DNA from: Halorientalis marina
GTDB taxonomy: Archaea > Halobacteriota > Halobacteria > Halobacteriales > Haloarculaceae
Length of the DNA stretch: 64,000 nt
NCBI RefSeq assembly: GCF_023028345.1
Contig: NZ_CP095487.1
Coordinates: forward strand, 1,860,001 to 1,924,000
Direction of reading: 5' to 3'
Part shown: positions 54,453-63,791 of the stretch, piece by piece
Layout: each line of letters begins with the position of its first letter
How positions within the stretch are numbered: the first letter of the stretch is position 1
The notes under the pieces: model-generated
Database searches by the model: none
What the model was told of the DNA's origin: nothing
Seen by the model: the letters and a program-made list of their open reading frames with translations, nothing else
Position numbers and translations under genes: made by a program

Positions 54453-54520
54453 CCGATGGTCTAGTGGTAGGACCTGAGCCTTCCAAGCTCATGGCCCGGG
54501 TTCAAATCCCGGTCGGCGCA
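54450..54520 (+). tRNA. tRNA-Gly (anticodon UCC)
   Basis: All parts fold: acceptor stem GCGCCGA (54450-54456) with TCGGCGC (54513-54519), discriminator A, a D arm with GGTCTAGTGGTAGGACC, the anticodon stem TGAGC/GCTCA around the loop CTTCCAA (positions 32-38), so the anticodon is UCC, and a T arm CCGGG-TTCAAAT-CCCGG. The 71-bp length is normal for class I. It ends in CGCA with no encoded CCA. Its 3' end is repeated downstream, so this is the target site of an integrated element. Confidence 0.97.
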
Positions 54521-56349: not shown

Positions 56350-58824
56350 TCATTCACCGGCCGGAACACCGCGCTGCTGTGCCGAATCGGGTTCCTGACT
56401 GACCGTCGAATCGGGTGTCTCGGACGGGCCCTCGGTTGAGGGCGTCTCCGGGGTCGGGGCGGCGAGCAGTGGCCGCGAGGAGTTCCCGACCACGAGCAGA
56501 CTACTGAGCGCCATCGCGACGGCAGCGACCAGCGGGTTGATGTGCCCGAGAATCGCAATCGGGACTGCGATGGCGTTGTAGCAGAACGCCCACCTGAGAT
56601 TCTGTGAGATGCGGCGGTTCGTCGCCCGGGTCAACGCGAACACGCGGGGGACGGCGCGCAGTTTCTCGCCGGTCAACACGACATCGGCGGCGTCGGCAGC
56701 CATCGCCGTCCCGCTGTCGAGCGCGATGCCGAGGTCGGCAGTCGCCAGCGCGGGCGCGTCGTTGCTCCCGTCGCCGACCATCGCGACCGTTCCCTCCGCC
56801 CGGAGGCGTTCGACGACTTCGGCTTTCGCCTCCGGTGGCACGCCGGCGAACACGTACTCGATGTCGGGATGGTCACGGAACCGGCCGACTGCGCGCTCGT
56901 CGTCGCCCGTAATGACCGCGACCGACCGCCCGGCAGCCGACAGTTCGCTCACGACCGAGGGCCACTCGGGACGGGGCTGGTCGCCGACGACGATCACGTC
57001 TCGTGCCCGCCCGTCCCAGCCGATCGCGACCGGCAGGTCGCCTTCGGAGCGGGCGTCGTCGGCGTGCGTCCGGAGCGAGTCCGGCACTGCAAGCCCCTCC
57101 GCAGTCAGTAGCTCCGGCTTGCCGACGATGACGCGCTGGTCGTCGACGGTCGCGCTCACGCCCCGTCCGGGGTGGCGCTGGAACTCCGTGACGGTCCATT
57201 CGGTCGGTGTGGTGTGGTCGGTGATGGCCGCCGCGACGGGGTGGCTGGCGAACTGCTCGACTGCGGCCGCACGCTCCATCGCCGCTGGCGACGCCGGGTC
57301 CGTCACGTGCATCTCGCCGGTGGTCAGCGTCCCGGTCTTGTCCAGTGCCACCACGTCGGTTTTCGCGGCGGCCTCGAAGACGCCGTCCCCACGCACGACG
57401 ATTCCGTGGTCGAGTCCGTCCCTGACGCCCGAGGCGACCGCCAGTGGCGTCGCCAGCCCGAGCGCACAGGGACAGGAGACCACGAGTACCGCCAACCCCG
57501 TTAGCAAACTGGTCGCGAAAGTGACACCCGAGAGGAGTTGCCAGCCCGCCGCACCCACTGCCAGCAGCAAGACGAGCGGGACGAACACGGTCGCCAGCCG
57601 ATCCGCGAGTCGCTGTGCACCCGGCCGGGCGCTCTGGATCTGCCAGAGCTGAGTCACCAGCCGGTCGAGCGTGCTGTCGACGTCCTCGCCGACCTCGACG
57701 GTGAGTGCATCGTCGGTGACGACCGCACCCCCGATCACCTCGTCGCCTGGCGTCTTCCGAACCGGGACCGACTCCCCGGTGACCAGTGACTCGTCGACCG
57801 ATGCCGTCCCCGCAGCGACGATGCCGTCGACGGGCACGCGTTCCCCGGGCCGGACCACGACCTCGTCACCGGGTTGGAGGGCCGAGACCGTGACGTCCTC
57901 CGTGTCAGTCCCGTCCGGAGTCCGACGGTGTGCCTCCGTGACACGCGCTCGTGTCAGGTCTTCCAGTGTTCCGCTGGCTGTTCGCTTGATGCGCTCCTCG
58001 TAGCGAGTGCCCAGCGTGACGACGAGGACGATCACGACGGAGATGTCGAAGTACACCTCCGAGCCACCAGTGACGACGACCGCCGTACTGTACACGTAGG
58101 CGTTGATCGCTGCCAGAGCCACGAGCAGGTCCATGTTCGGATGTCCGGACCGGAGACTGACGTACGCGCCCCGGAGGATCGGTGCGCCAGTGTACAGTAA
58201 AACGATGGAGGTGAACACCCAGAGATTCCCCAGGGAAAGCAACCCGACTGGCCCGGACTGCCAGGCGGCTCCCGTCGGCTGGAACCCGAAGTACCGCGGG
58301 TACAGGAAGAGCACGTACCACATCATCACCATCATACCACAGAACCCGCCGACGAGCAGCCGCCAGGGCGGGGACGCCGACCGCTCCGGCGTCGCGTCGT
58401 CGAGTGGTCGCGCCTCGTACCCGAGCCCGCTGACCGCCTCGGGGAGAGCCGCCGGGTCGGCCCGCTCCGGATCGTAGACCAGCCTGAGGAGGTCCGCCGC
58501 GTAGTTCGCCTCGGCTGCCGTCACACCCTCCTGTGCAGTCGCCCTGCTCTCGAGATAGGCCTCACAGGTCCCGCAGTGCATTCCCTCGACTGCCAGGAAC
58601 AGTTCCGTCCCGTCAGCGTCGGCGGGCACCGGCTCCGCCTCGCCGTCGAGTCGGTCACGGACTGCCTCCGTGGCCTCGGGCTCACACTCGTCGAGTCGCT
58701 TTGCGACCGCGAGACAGCCGCGACAGCAGAACTCGCCCTCGACGGTCTCGTCGGTGAGCGGCGGGTCCGGCGCGGGCAGCTCACAGAGCGTGCAGGTCGT
58801 CGCCGTGGCCCCGTCCGCGGTCAT
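56350..58824 (-). CDS. Cu+-transporting P1B-type ATPase, CcoI/FixI-like
   Basis: This 824-residue pump moves Cu(I) across the membrane, in the CcoI branch for oxidase copper supply. Residues 11-37 carry a cysteine-rich domain (C11, C14, EFCCRGC at 31-37) as in CcoI/FixI; the HMA metal domain has GMHCGTC at 81-87. The membrane metal motif CPC is in VVSCPCALGLATPLA, the phosphorylated Asp in ALDKTGTLTTGE, and the hinge motif in VGDGSNDAPALATAD. Start ATG 58824 lies after the TATA box and operator; ATG 58869 would sit inside the operator. Its regulator gene lies upstream on the same strand. Confidence 0.92.
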   Translation of the reverse strand: MTADGATATTCTLCELPAPDPPLTDETVEGEFCCRGCLAVAKRLDECEPEATEAVRDRLDGEAEPVPADADGTELFLAVEGMHCGTCEAYLESRATAQEGVTAAEANYAADLLRLVYDPERADPAALPEAVSGLGYEARPLDDATPERSASPPWRLLVGGFCGMMVMMWYVLFLYPRYFGFQPTGAAWQSGPVGLLSLGNLWVFTSIVLLYTGAPILRGAYVSLRSGHPNMDLLVALAAINAYVYSTAVVVTGGSEVYFDISVVIVLVVTLGTRYEERIKRTASGTLEDLTRARVTEAHRRTPDGTDTEDVTVSALQPGDEVVVRPGERVPVDGIVAAGTASVDESLVTGESVPVRKTPGDEVIGGAVVTDDALTVEVGEDVDSTLDRLVTQLWQIQSARPGAQRLADRLATVFVPLVLLLAVGAAGWQLLSGVTFATSLLTGLAVLVVSCPCALGLATPLAVASGVRDGLDHGIVVRGDGVFEAAAKTDVVALDKTGTLTTGEMHVTDPASPAAMERAAAVEQFASHPVAAAITDHTTPTEWTVTEFQRHPGRGVSATVDDQRVIVGKPELLTAEGLAVPDSLRTHADDARSEGDLPVAIGWDGRARDVIVVGDQPRPEWPSVVSELSAAGRSVAVITGDDERAVGRFRDHPDIEYVFAGVPPEAKAEVVERLRAEGTVAMVGDGSNDAPALATADLGIALDSGTAMAADAADVVLTGEKLRAVPRVFALTRATNRRISQNLRWAFCYNAIAVPIAILGHINPLVAAVAMALSSLLVVGNSSRPLLAAPTPETPSTEGPSETPDSTVSQEPDSAQQRGVPAGE

Positions 58825-58859: not shown

Positions 58860-58887
58860 GACCCTGCATACTGAGGGTGATATATAT
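58860..58887 (-). promoter_or_regulatory. Promoter and operator of the copper ATPase gene
   Basis: On the minus strand the TATA box ATATATAT (58880-58887) is followed directly by a 20-bp near-palindrome, read on the plus strand as GACCCTGCATACTGAGGGTG (58860-58879). It agrees in 18 of 20 positions with the operator at 59841-59860. The predicted transcription start lies at its downstream edge. Confidence 0.75.
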
Positions 58888-59043
58888 CGAGCGACGCGCC
58901 AGCGGCTGCAACGACGCAGCCGTCGAGGTCGAACGGGCGGTCGACTGCCGCGGTGACGGTTCGATCGGCCACCGGATCGAGGAGAGGCCCCGGGTTCCGA
59001 TGGCGAACGAGCGTGGGGTCCGTAACCGGCCGGTCGTCGTCGG

Positions 59044-59739
59044 TCACTCCGAGACGACGCTCGACAGCAGTTTGCCCTGGGCGGCCGCGAGGTGTTCGCT
59101 GAACGTGGTGGTGGCGATATCGAGTTCCGCGGCCACTTCGTTGGCGTTGGCTTCCTTGGGGTGATCGAAGTAGCCCATCTCGTACGCTGTCGAGAGGACC
59201 TCGATCTGGCGGTCGGTGAGTCGCCCGCGGTCGACGACGACGTGGTCCTCGTCGTCGAGTCCGGCCGAGTGGGAGAGGTGCCGGAGCCTGACAGCCGAGA
59301 ACACCTCACGCGCTTCGGTCACGATCGTCCGGACCGTCTCGACGTTCTCGGCGTAGAAGGTGACGAACAGGTCGCCGTTCTCGGCGTGAATGTCGCTGAC
59401 CGGGCAGTTGTGCTGCTCGACGAACCGGCAGAGACAGGGGCCATCCGGGTCGTAGCTGTATCGGTACCGCGTCCGCGATCCGGTCCGGAAGACCGGCGTC
59501 ATGTCCTCCGCCGGCGGATCGGCTTCAGCGGGGAGTGTGAACTCCGCAACCTCGCAGTCTTCGGCGGGACTGCTGCGAGCCACCGAGTTGACCAGTGCGT
59601 TACACTCCCCGGAGAGGTCCGCGATCGGGCAGCACTCGGGTCCTCTCACGACCATCTCGACCTGAATGCCACCGCCGGTCTCTTCCCCGTCGTCGGCTTC
59701 CGAGACTGTCACGCCGTCACTGGACCCGTGAGTGCTCAT
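59044..59739 (-). CDS. Cys-rich HTH-10 regulator (NarO/DmsR-like)
   Basis: A 231-residue regulator with a C-terminal HTH-10 domain (LTDRQIEVLSTAYEMGYFD, EVAAELDIATTTFSEHL). The N-terminal domain has seven cysteines at 36, 37, 46, 62, 102, 104 and 112, in the pattern of haloarchaeal NarO and DmsR, which control denitrification and anaerobic respiration, probably through a metal or iron-sulfur cofactor. The start is ATG 59739. It lies between the copper ATPase gene and the divergent respiratory operon, whose promoters share an operator, so it probably controls both. Confidence 0.85.
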   Translation of the reverse strand: MSTHGSSDGVTVSEADDGEETGGGIQVEMVVRGPECCPIADLSGECNALVNSVARSSPAEDCEVAEFTLPAEADPPAEDMTPVFRTGSRTRYRYSYDPDGPCLCRFVEQHNCPVSDIHAENGDLFVTFYAENVETVRTIVTEAREVFSAVRLRHLSHSAGLDDEDHVVVDRGRLTDRQIEVLSTAYEMGYFDHPKEANANEVAAELDIATTTFSEHLAAAQGKLLSSVVSE

Positions 59740-59833
59740 ACGTCTCTCTCCGCAATCGCTGCCCATATGCGGCCGTCGTTGTTCTCAGCCGCTGGGAATC
59801 CGGATGGTCCCGGCAGGCCTGGGCCAGGGAGGG

Positions 59834-59860
59834 TAGATAAGACCCTGCATACTCAGGGTC
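59834..59860 (+). promoter_or_regulatory. Promoter and 20-bp operator of the heme-copper reductase operon
   Basis: TAGATAA (59834-59840) serves as TATA box, directly followed by the perfect palindrome GACCCTGCATACTCAGGGTC (59841-59860; 7-bp arms GACCCTG/CAGGGTC). The divergent regulator gene is read from the same interval, so one site may serve both promoters. The TATA-then-palindrome geometry is identical to that at 58860-58887. Confidence 0.75.
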
Positions 59861-59897: not shown

Positions 59898-60044
59898 ATG
59901 TCAGGACAGGATCGGGCAGACGTACCGTGGCCCCAGCAGTTGCTGGAGAGTCCCTGGCTGCTGGCCGGGGCGGCGTTGCTGTTTTTCACGCTCTCGTACA
60001 TCATCTGGGGTCTGGTCGATCTCATGGCAATCGCAGGAGGGTAA
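59898..60044 (+). CDS. 48-residue membrane subunit of the heme-copper reductase (CbaD-like)
   Basis: The ORF ATG 59898 to TAA 60042-60044 encodes a single-helix protein: PWPQQLLESPWLLAGAALLF, followed by FTLSYIIWGLVDLMAIAGG. A short one-helix subunit precedes subunit II in ba3-type operons (subunit IIa/CbaD of Thermus). It is separated from the next gene by only one base. ATG 59868 is an alternative start in the same frame. Confidence 0.8.
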   Translation: MSGQDRADVPWPQQLLESPWLLAGAALLFFTLSYIIWGLVDLMAIAGG

Positions 60045-60045
60045 C

Positions 60046-60981
60046 ATGAAGTCACCACTCGAAGGCCCAGACGGAAACTGGTGGGACGAGAAGGTGAACA
60101 GGCGCGAAACCATCTGGCTCGGCATCTCGGGCGCGTGGGCACTGGGCCTGTTCGGCTGGATGTCCGGCTGGACGCAGTTCGGCAACCAGAACCCCATCGG
60201 CGAGTCGCTGGACGTTTCCACCGAACGGTTCCAGGAGAAAGTTACCGATTACAAGAGCCGGGCCGGTGAGGCCGAAGCGGGTCTGGTGCCGCCCGGAACG
60301 GATATCTACGTCGGCGCGGCCCGGTACGCCTTCGACGGCCTGCCGGTCGTGCTGGAGAAGGGGACCGAGTACACGTTCCACCTGGGTACCTACGACGTCC
60401 AGCACGGGTTCTCGGTGCGACTCGAAGACACCCTCTCGAAGCAGATGAGCCTGCAGATGCTTCCGGGGTACGAGTGGCTCGTGCCGATGTCCTTCGACGA
60501 GATCGGGACCTACCACGTCGTCTGTAACGAGTTCTGTGGCGAGGGGCACCGGACGATGCACTCCACCTTCGAGGTGCGTGACTCGCTCCCCGACGTGGAG
60601 ATGGGCACCGGCACCGACGGGTCGGAAGACGGCCAGTACGACGGCTACCTCAGCAACGCGGACAACTTCGACGGCGAACCAGTCGACGAGACCGGCAGCG
60701 ATTCGGTCACGATTCGAGTCGGCGCGGAAGGCAACGGCGGCGGCTTCGCGTTCGACCCCCCGGCCGTCCGGGTCGACACTGGAACGACCGTCACCTGGGA
60801 GTGGACCGGCGAGGGGGGCCAGCACAACGTCGTCGCGGAGTCGGGTGCTGACTTCGAGTCCGAACTGACCGGCGAGGCTGGCTTCACCTTCGAGCGGACG
60901 TTCGAGGAGAGCGGCGCTGTCACGTACTTCTGCCGGCCACACAAAGCCCTCGGAATGAAAGGCGTCGTGGAGGTGCTGTAG
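60046..60981 (+). CDS. Heme-copper reductase subunit II: CuA domain fused to a halocyanin domain
   Basis: The 311-residue protein has one N-terminal membrane helix (TIWLGISGAWALGLFGWMSG). Residues 85-180 form a CuA cupredoxin with H120, C160, C164, H168 and M171 (CNEFCGEGHRTM). After an acidic linker, residues 217-311 form a halocyanin-type blue copper domain with H260, C296, H299 and M304 (GGQHNVVAES, YFCRPHKALGMKG). The usual mobile electron donor is therefore tethered to its acceptor. It is co-transcribed with the small subunit and subunit I, whose start follows without a gap. Confidence 0.92.
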   Translation: MKSPLEGPDGNWWDEKVNRRETIWLGISGAWALGLFGWMSGWTQFGNQNPIGESLDVSTERFQEKVTDYKSRAGEAEAGLVPPGTDIYVGAARYAFDGLPVVLEKGTEYTFHLGTYDVQHGFSVRLEDTLSKQMSLQMLPGYEWLVPMSFDEIGTYHVVCNEFCGEGHRTMHSTFEVRDSLPDVEMGTGTDGSEDGQYDGYLSNADNFDGEPVDETGSDSVTIRVGAEGNGGGFAFDPPAVRVDTGTTVTWEWTGEGGQHNVVAESGADFESELTGEAGFTFERTFEESGAVTYFCRPHKALGMKGVVEVL

Positions 60982-62748
60982 ATGTTCGGAACGTACGAAT
61001 ACGACGACGACGGCTTCCGCACGTGCTCGGTGACGGGACTGGACATCCACAGGTCCGCCGAGGACATGGTGAAACTGTTCGGCGTGACGGCGATCGTCTC
61101 GCTGGCATTCGGTGGCATCTTCGCGATCTTCGTCGTCTTGACCCGCTGGGAGGTCGTCGGCCTGCTCTCCCCGGGCGACTTCTACACGTATCTCTCGATG
61201 CACGCGTGGCTCCTGCTGGTCTTCTGGATGGTGTTCATGGAGATCGCCGTCCTGTACGTGGGTGGCCCGTTCGTCCTCGGGCGAAAACTCCCGTGGAAGC
61301 GCCTCTCACAGGCGGCGTACGCGCTGATGGCCGGTGGCGCGGTGACGATCCTCACCGCGATCTGGCTCACCGAGCAACCGAATCAGGCGCCACTGCTGAC
61401 CTCCTACGTCCCACTGCCGTCCTCGGAGTGGTTCTATCTCGGTGCGATCGTCTTCCTGCTGGGGGCACTCGTCGCGGCGCTGCCCTTCCTCGCGACGATC
61501 TGGAAGGAGAAACGGCAGAACCCCCACGGGACGATGCCGCTCGTCGCCTTCGGCGCGTTCATCACCTCGATCGTCGCCGCGGAGGCCATCGTCGGTGGAC
61601 TCGTCACCTACATCCCGACGTATCTCTGGCGGATCGGGGTCTTCCCGGCGCTCGATGCGGCGTGGTACCGGCAGATGTACTGGATCATGGGTCACGGGAC
61701 CCAGCAGATCAACCTCCTGGCGATGATCACGATCTGGTACTTCATGACCCACGTGGTCGGGGGTGCCGAGGTCGCCAGCGAGAAAGTCTCACGCACGGCC
61801 TTCGTGCTCTACCTGTTTTTCATCAACATGGGCGCGGCCCACCACCTGATGGTGGACCCGGGCCTCTCGCCGGCCTGGAAGATCTGGAACACCTCCTACG
61901 CCGCGTACGGCGCGGTCCTGGCGAGCATGATTCACGCGTTCGCCATCCCTGCGGGACTCGAAGTCGGACGCCGCAAGCGCGGCAAGGGTGGTGGCGTCTT
62001 CGGCTGGCTCAAGACCGCACCGTGGAGCGACCCCGGTTTCTCGTCTATCGTGATGAGCGTCATCCTCTTTGGCTTCCTGGGAGGCATCACCGGCGTCATG
62101 ATGGGCCAGATGCAGCTCAACATGACCTGGCACAACACGCTGGCCGTGCCGGGTCACTTCCACGCCACCGTGGTCCTCGGGACGACGCTGGCGTTCATGG
62201 GGCTGAGCTACTACGTCCTCAGACTGGTCTTTGGCCGCGAGTGGGTCCTGAAACCGCTGGCGGTCATCCAGCCGTATCTCTACGCCGGTGCGATGAGCAT
62301 CACGGTCCTCATGATGATGTACATCGGCATCCTGTTCGGTGTCCCGCGTCGTCACCCCTCGGTGATGGACATCCCGGGTACCGACTTCAGCTTCGCCGCC
62401 GCCAAGCCACTGTTTTTCATCTTCGGCATCGCCGCGCTGGTGGCGATCCTCGGCGGGGCACTGTTCGTCGTCGTCGCCGTCGGAACGCTGCTCGGTGGTG
62501 ACAAGTACGAGGGTGCGCTCCCGGTCGAGCGGCCCACCGCCGTCGCCGACGGTGGTCCCGCGAGCGACGCGAACGGGACGTCGTCGGACGGGCAGTCCGA
62601 CGGAAGTGACGACGACGAGGAAGGCATGGCCCACCACATGCTGAGCATGCGCGGGACGTTCATCCTCGCGCTCGTGTTCTTCGCCGTGTTCGTCGTGATG
62701 ATGGCACTGAACTGGTTCCTGCTCAGCGGCCTCTGGAAGATCGGGTGA
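60982..62748 (+). CDS. Heme-copper reductase subunit I (B-family-like, missing the active-site tyrosine)
   Basis: A 588-residue membrane protein with the conserved heme and copper ligands: H74 in helix II, H238 for CuB in helix VI, H287-H288 in helix VII, and H392/H394 in helix X (VPGHFHATV). The helix X pattern WHNTLAVPGHFH is B-family (ba3-like). But helix VI reads MGHGTQQINLL, where oxidases have GHPxVYFWLL, so the cross-linked Tyr (H+4) is Gln242. A charged linker (about 520-555) leads to an additional C-terminal helix. It could reduce O2 by an unusual site or, more likely, NO. Confidence 0.88.
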   Translation: MFGTYEYDDDGFRTCSVTGLDIHRSAEDMVKLFGVTAIVSLAFGGIFAIFVVLTRWEVVGLLSPGDFYTYLSMHAWLLLVFWMVFMEIAVLYVGGPFVLGRKLPWKRLSQAAYALMAGGAVTILTAIWLTEQPNQAPLLTSYVPLPSSEWFYLGAIVFLLGALVAALPFLATIWKEKRQNPHGTMPLVAFGAFITSIVAAEAIVGGLVTYIPTYLWRIGVFPALDAAWYRQMYWIMGHGTQQINLLAMITIWYFMTHVVGGAEVASEKVSRTAFVLYLFFINMGAAHHLMVDPGLSPAWKIWNTSYAAYGAVLASMIHAFAIPAGLEVGRRKRGKGGGVFGWLKTAPWSDPGFSSIVMSVILFGFLGGITGVMMGQMQLNMTWHNTLAVPGHFHATVVLGTTLAFMGLSYYVLRLVFGREWVLKPLAVIQPYLYAGAMSITVLMMMYIGILFGVPRRHPSVMDIPGTDFSFAAAKPLFFIFGIAALVAILGGALFVVVAVGTLLGGDKYEGALPVERPTAVADGGPASDANGTSSDGQSDGSDDDEEGMAHHMLSMRGTFILALVFFAVFVVMMALNWFLLSGLWKIG

Positions 62749-62753
62749 CCACC

Positions 62754-63791
62754 ATGCAGGACACCCACACCCCGTCGCTGACTCGCTCGCTCCTCTCGCT
62801 GTCCAAGCCCCGGATCGTCGCGCTGCTCACGCTGACGGGCGTAACCGCTGTCTTCGCAGCCGGTGGGTTACCGCTCGTCGAACTCGCAGCGTTCGTCCTC
62901 GCCGGGATCGGCATGGCCGGTGGCTCGGCCGCGCTGAACTGCTACTACGACCGGGATATCGACCCCGAGATGGAACGCACTGCCGACCGCCCGCTCGCGA
63001 CGGGGCACGTCTCGCCGTGGGTCGCACTCGCGTTCGGAACGGGGCTGCTCGCTGCCGCGACGGCCGTCGGACTGCTCGTGCTCCCTGCCGTCTCGGTCGG
63101 GTACATGTGGCTCGGCGTCGCGAGTTACGTCGGCCTCTACACCGTCTTGCTGAAGCGACGCCACTGGCTGGGGGTCGTTCTCGGCGGGTCCGCGGGGTCG
63201 TTCCCCGTACTGGCCGGCTGGACCGCGGTCCACCCCGTCGCGGTCCCCGCAGCGCCGGCACTCTTGATGGCTCTCCTCGTGTTCGTCTGGACGCCCGCTC
63301 ACGCGTGGGCGCTCGCTGTCGTCTACCGTGAGGATTTCGCTGCCGTCGCCATCCCGACGTTGCCGGTGGTCACCGACCCCGCTCGGACCCGGCGTGCCAT
63401 CTGGCTGTCGGCACTGCTGACAGTCCTGACGGCCGCCGCACTGGTCCCGTTCGCGGGCCCGGTCTACGCTGGTGCGCTCGCTGCCGGCTCGGTGCTGTTC
63501 CTGCTGGCCTACCGCGGGTTCCTCACGGCAGGGACGGACTCGACGGCTGTCCGAGCCTTCTTCACCTCGAACGTCTATCTCGCGCTGTTGTTCGTCGGCT
63601 GGGCCGTCGACGGCTCGCTCGCGGCCGGACCAGCGGGTGCTCTCGGCAGCGCCGGTCTCTCGGCGATGCTGATCGGCTGGCTCTGGTCGCGGCGGCCCCG
63701 TCTCGGCGGGGTCCCGGCTGCGCCGGGACCAGACCTGCCTGCACTCGCGACTCGCGCGTACCACCGCGTCGTCACCGCCGAGGCGCCGTGA
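62754..63791 (+). CDS. ctaB: Protoheme IX farnesyltransferase, second copy
   Basis: A 345-residue UbiA-family heme O synthase: KPRIVALLTLTGVTAVFAAGG, the Asp-rich LNCYYDRDIDPEMERTADRP, ATGHVSPWVAL and LVFVWTPAHAWALAVVYREDF. It lacks the CtaA-like half that is fused to the other copy at 8556-10049. It starts 5 bp after subunit I; GTG 62745 overlapping that stop is an alternative start. It likely makes heme O for the co-transcribed reductase. Confidence 0.92.
   Translation: MQDTHTPSLTRSLLSLSKPRIVALLTLTGVTAVFAAGGLPLVELAAFVLAGIGMAGGSAALNCYYDRDIDPEMERTADRPLATGHVSPWVALAFGTGLLAAATAVGLLVLPAVSVGYMWLGVASYVGLYTVLLKRRHWLGVVLGGSAGSFPVLAGWTAVHPVAVPAAPALLMALLVFVWTPAHAWALAVVYREDFAAVAIPTLPVVTDPARTRRAIWLSALLTVLTAAALVPFAGPVYAGALAAGSVLFLLAYRGFLTAGTDSTAVRAFFTSNVYLALLFVGWAVDGSLAAGPAGALGSAGLSAMLIGWLWSRRPRLGGVPAAPGPDLPALATRAYHRVVTAEAP

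Follow-up and report, generated by a model that had tools for sequence, protein, structure and literature searches.

Palindromes adjoining the TATA boxes of a copper ATPase gene and a predicted NO reductase operon in Halorientalis marina: probable operators of a repressor-type factor

Several archaeal repressors, for example, LrpA, Phr and MDR1, act through TATA-proximal operators, in which a palindrome located directly after the TATA box hinders polymerase recruitment. For NarO, a regulator of denitrification genes, the reference is reportedly Hattori et al. 2016. Denitrification promoters and NarO-type control are associated with a published motif that resembles CGAAN4TTCG, and CGAACATGTTCG is the form published for the nir, nor and nos promoters of Haloferax mediterranei (PMC10062603). 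Haloarchaeal regulators of denitrification beyond NarO have been described as unknown (PMC10062603, PMC11218638).

Here we analyse a stretch of 64,000 nucleotides of the H. marina genome (contig NZ_CP095487.1, positions 1,860,001 to 1,924,000; hereafter, the window), in which two similar palindromes adjoin the TATA boxes of a copper ATPase gene and of a predicted NO reductase (NOR) operon. The relevant features, in window coordinates, are the following.

56350..58824, minus strand: copper-translocating P1B-type ATPase, 824 aa (Pfam; NCBIfam TIGR01511, E 5e-132)
58860..58879, minus strand: operator 2, GACCCTGCATACTGAGGGTG on the plus strand, CACCCTCAGTATGCAGGGTC when read towards the ATPase gene
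58880..58887, minus strand: TATA box ATATATAT of the copper ATPase gene, directly before operator 2
59044..59739, minus strand: DmsR_N plus HTH_10 regulator, 231 aa, Cys-rich (Pfam PF24277, PF04967)
59782..59798, no strand assigned: second palindrome, TTCTCAGCCGCTGGGAA, nirK-type, one mismatch to TTCTCAGN3CTGAGAA
59834..59840, plus strand: TATA-box-like TAGATAA of the NOR operon, weak, directly before operator 1
59841..59860, plus strand: operator 1, GACCCTGCATACTCAGGGTC, directly downstream of the NOR-operon TATA box
59898..60044, plus strand: NOR-operon membrane subunit of 48 aa, conserved in position across most NOR loci
60046..60981, plus strand: NOR subunit II, CuA-type cupredoxin fused to a halocyanin domain (TIGR02866, TIGR03102; CxxxC motif)
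60982..62748, plus strand: NOR subunit I, eNOR-type heme-copper reductase (PF00115)
62745..63791, plus strand: heme O synthase (CtaB/CyoE; TIGR01473, above the curated cut-off)

Operator 1 is an exact GACCCTG-N6-CAGGGTC with perfect arms, and operator 2 has two mismatches to it. In operator 2, the outermost and the innermost arm pairs (G/C) are broken, so that its symmetric core is CCCT-N8-AGGG. The 16-mer cores are CCCTGCATACTGAGGG at the ATPase site and CCCTGCATACTCAGGG at the NOR site. The original prediction had the two 20-mers agreeing at 18 positions and lying directly after the TATA boxes; coordinates and identity are both correct, and the operators start 0-2 bp past the TATA box in the direction of the gene. 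With predicted 5' leaders of approximately 35 nt at both genes, each operator spans roughly positions -22 to -3, between the TATA box and the predicted transcription start, which is at about 59863 (plus strand) for the NOR operon and at about 58857 (minus strand) for the ATPase gene. Both sites have the same genomic orientation and, at a distance of 981 bp, form direct repeats on either side of the regulator gene; a recombination event between the repeats could remove this gene. Elsewhere in the window, an exact 20-bp palindromic repeat, TCGGCGCATTCCTGCGGCGA, is present in two copies, at 54513 and 54634, 121 bp apart.

The copper ATPase contains the HMA domain and the CPC membrane motif, and its N terminus is Cys-rich and FixI/CcoI-like. 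In the alignment of subunit I, the active-site tyrosine is replaced by glutamine, with HGTQQI in place of the HPVVYF of oxidases of the same family, and the CuA cupredoxin subunit II is encoded directly upstream. Replacement of the cross-linked tyrosine by glutamine is the criterion that defines the eNOR type (PMC8756737), so the label "reductase" given to the operon in the original prediction is right, and the operon is a predicted eNOR-type NO reductase. A PDB search with subunit I retrieved only cytochrome c oxidases, mostly of the ba3 type, at approximately 118-127 bits, and no NOR structure. The heme O synthase gene is the last one of the operon and overlaps the subunit I gene by 4 bp. 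Among the NOR loci compared, the ATPase-regulator-NOR arrangement was seen in this genome only. Most of the copper ATPase orthologues lie within operons in which another membrane gene precedes them, so that no promoter comparison is possible for them.

Within the window alone, the similarity between the two sites is borderline and not remarkable because pairs of palindromic 20-mers that agree at 17-18 of the 20 positions turn up in most Markov shuffles of the window; likewise, the degenerate 20-mer pattern with up to three mismatches is found nine times, against 7.0 expected. If only the two promoter stretches are compared, 4e-5 pairs that agree at 18/20 are expected, before any correction for all the promoter pairs open to comparison. 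Post hoc choice of promoters inflates the significance of single sites; the cleanest test is a profile built with the window left out. The genome-wide scan proposed in the original prediction (4.75 Mb) detected the 20-mer, with up to three mismatches, at the two window places only. A relaxed 14-mer has about 250 three-mismatch places in the same genome, the best-ranked of which outside the window fall inside ORFs and are uninformative, and no promoter-placed relative was found among the best matches elsewhere in this genome. It is, then, the other genomes, not the match within the window, that decide whether the site is real.

The most extensive recurrence was found at genes for a winged-helix regulator (Pfam HTH_20; wH is our working name, and g1, g8, g15 and the like are working genus labels). 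Nearly all of the 30 wH promoters examined contain a CCC...GGG palindrome, or a related one, that starts 0-3 nt past the TATA box; in this set, no palindrome was found in the promoter of L291, a wH homologue from another subgroup. In g15, where the wH genes are divergent from a DmsR/HTH_10 regulator gene, the typical element is CCC(T/C)GCATACTGAGGG, in the same TATA register as the window sites. The core of this TATA-adjacent operator family is CCC-N3-ATA(C/T)-N3/4-GGG, and the wH operator is present in haloarchaea of g15, g13, g10, g6, g2 and g1; we found no record of it in the literature. Both window sites start within the same 0-3 nt of the TATA box, in the direction of the gene, and both conform to the CCC...ATA...GGG palindrome in the alignment and in the leave-window-out profile. 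In the g15 cluster (loci L263-L274), a DUF7560 zinc-ribbon gene is located downstream of wH (L240:1951-2214); a literature search for DUF7560 found nothing.

Two profiles were built, R1, which includes the window sites, and R2, which was derived from ten wH promoters of g15 only, a genus other than that of H. marina, with the window left out; E-values of such short profiles are rough. When the final 14 kb of the window were scanned without filtering, R2 ranked the two palindromes as the top two matches (E 1e-4 and 4e-3), although the score of the NOR site in this independent profile is modest, 11.7 bits. At E<=0.5, the sole R2 match in the H. marina genome is the ATPase site (E 0.038). Across the family, R2 matches wH promoters along with the nirK promoters of two genomes, G121 and G128. 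For most genomes of g15, the best profile match, or the only one, is the wH promoter.

The 16-mer core, sought with at most one mismatch in 392 genomes, was found in 29 places, whereas the reversed control had about 9. A single element, CCCTGCATACTCCGGG, accounts for 15 of the 29 matches; it precedes a sulfatase-like gene, is conserved in 14 genomes from g28 and present in one from g92 (L184, L185 and L245-L259, position 1501), and is not counted with the operator. The NOR-site core CCCTGCATACTCAGGG is present in nirK promoters, about 80 nt before the ATG, exact in G060 and G062 and with one mismatch in G059. In g8, the core before nirK lies upstream of the TATA box, unlike the window sites, and this position would suit activation. 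Where g8 has this core, the nirK promoters of g12 (L190-L197) contain CCCCCGATGCTGGGGG-type palindromes, also upstream of the TATA box. Looser versions of the operator are found before nirK in five genomes (G121, G128, G132, G097 and G100), and in the last three of these, elements of the same type follow the TATA box. The ATPase-site core CCCTGCATACTGAGGG is exact in the wH promoters of G120 and G128; in G120, it immediately follows the TATA box of a winged-helix gene (127 aa) that is divergent from a DmsR/HTH_10 regulator. Together, the TATA register and the recurrence at wH and nirK promoters support the original view of the site as a regulatory operator.

Conservation of the palindrome in orthologous promoters, which the original prediction had set as a check, was not observed: none of the 57 promoters of close NOR orthologues compared (43 named loci and 14 family genomes, in partly overlapping sets) carries it, and the carriers in other genomes are the non-orthologous promoters of wH genes and nirK. 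A fixed CCCTN8AGGG was also tried and rejected, being present in 2 of the 57, under the shuffled expectation. By contrast, CGAAN4TTCG with at most one mismatch is found in 43 of the 57 NOR promoters (11% in shuffles) and is exact in 19 (0.3% in shuffles). The window NOR promoter lacks this motif, its best match within 330 bp having three mismatches, and, therefore, the NOR promoter here has been rewired: CGAAN4TTCG has been lost and another operator is in its place.

The regulator gene appears to have a promoter element of its own. TTCTCAGCCGCTGGGAA is placed before a CATATG TATA-like box of this gene (59764-59769, minus strand) and is a better promoter element for it than the GACCCTG sites. 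In two sets of nirK-like genes, palindromes that match TTCTCAGN3CTGAGAA with at most three mismatches were detected in 24 of the 46 promoters of one set (L186-L231) and in 27 of the 40 of the other (L340-L379), compared with approximately 0.5% or less in shuffles; in these promoters, TTCTNAG-N3-CTGAGAA is often tandem and just before the TATA box, and we found no description of this palindrome. Because the regulator promoter carries a nirK-type palindrome, the regulator gene and the two operator-bearing units may be under different control. The small regulon originally proposed thus stands for the copper ATPase and for the NOR operon that ends in heme O synthase but not for the regulator gene, whose TATA box is not where the GACCCTG sites lie. 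DmsR/HTH_10 genes of the same genus (L131, L135, L141 and L145) have another upstream palindrome, CAACCGAA...TTCGGTTG.

Which protein binds the operators? In the tree, the operator-carrying wH proteins form one group, whose sister group is often encoded near nirK, and the recognition-helix stretch STTYRKL is common to both. None of the 16 wH homologues of H. marina belongs to the operator-carrying subgroup or has the element in its promoter, and two of the 16 are in the sister subgroup (e.g., G000:C1:1451822-1452109); another HTH_20 protein of H. marina is encoded at C1:3512812-3513060. A sister-subgroup wH protein is encoded also in g8, with its exact core before nirK. The predicted binder here, judging from these relationships, is probably a wH-family protein of the sister subgroup.

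The original prediction assigned this role to the DmsR_N/HTH_10 protein encoded between the sites, which would bind both of them and control its neighbours. The position of its gene between the sites fits this model, DmsR-type regulators adjoin the wH operators in g15, g1, g6 and g10, and bacterio-opsin-activator-like regulators are candidate denitrification regulators (PMC11218638). However, the element tracks wH and is kept at ten wH loci with no DmsR-type gene within 1.5 kb (L275, L276, L279, L282, L284, L286-L288, L290 and L292); the DmsR-type regulators that adjoin wH comprise a single clade (98/97) and the window regulator falls outside it, in the other clade of the family. The NarO-type denitrification motif is, moreover, of a different sequence than the window sites (PMC10062603), and a site placed after the TATA box fits repression, but NarO and DmsR have been described as activators. 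The HTH-10 protein as the binder is thus unsupported, and we consider this model unlikely.

Conceivably, a copper-sensing repressor of another family, such as an Lrp/TRASH- or CsoR-type protein, could use the sites as those of a copper-homeostasis regulon, given that copper proteins are found throughout (the ATPase, the CuA subunit II, the halocyanin domain and NirK). Yet the element is most often carried by wH regulator genes, not by copper genes, and the second copper ATPase of this genome (C1:1336882) lacks the site, which makes this scenario quite improbable; with denitrification genes as the other carriers, a purely copper-centred reading is too narrow. A lack of any regulatory meaning, with the two copies resulting from coincidence, recent duplication or the insertion of the regulator gene between direct repeats, would agree with the borderline similarity within the window and with the shared orientation of the copies on either side of that gene. 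Against this stand the identical TATA register at both genes and the wH promoters, the recurrence of the site in unrelated promoters of other genera and the absence of the 20-mer elsewhere in the genome, and we hold such an origin to be very improbable.

The explanation that we favour, with moderate confidence, is that a single repressor-type factor has the two palindromes as its operators and that these belong to the family of TATA-adjacent wH/nirK operators, the binder itself being a wH-family protein by inference. A repressor probably docks at the palindromes, given that sites of the same kind occupy the same spot before the wH regulator and nitrite reductase genes of relatives, and repression is proposed because the site sits between the TATA box and the start, where a bound dimer would block the recruitment of RNA polymerase. 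In related haloarchaea, the wH gene is the constant carrier of the operator and presumably is autoregulated. In H. marina, the NOR operon has lost the CGAAN4TTCG activator site and carries this operator instead, as does the adjacent copper ATPase gene; the removal of NO, the supply of heme O and the transport of copper would then be turned on and off jointly, the signal probably being a nitrogen oxide, redox state or copper. The targets in the various genomes (wH, nirK, NOR and the copper ATPase) suggest a role in denitrification, the handling of NO and its need for copper.

More tentatively, and with some doubt on our part, wH (HTH_20) could be an undescribed repressor family that senses nitrogen oxides or redox state and controls nirK, eNOR and copper supply via one operator; with the same reservation, a DmsR-type activator gene might often be its partner, joined in g15 by the DUF7560 gene. 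If so, the wH family would be an archaeal functional counterpart of NsrR, with the operator handed from gene to gene, as here. The operator and the linked wH gene make a concrete, testable candidate pair for denitrification control, and this locus implies that nor promoters can be rewired, from a CGAAN4TTCG site to an operator common to a copper transporter.

Of the systems that can be compared, the wH-promoter operators are linked to denitrification regulators and nirK and have the same core and TATA register as the window sites but differ in that the window copies front NOR and the copper ATPase, in a genome without an operator-carrying wH gene. The operators of the LrpA, Phr and MDR1 type similarly consist of a palindrome directly after the TATA box; they differ in sequence, protein family and target genes, and the repression mechanism here is predicted. 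The CGAAN4TTCG-type motif (CGAAYATDKTYG, PMC10062603) is, like the window sites, a palindrome in nirK/nor promoters and a presumed denitrification operator; however, it has another sequence, exerts positive control and is located 66-79 nt ahead of the start codon. The window sites, in contrast, abut the TATA box.
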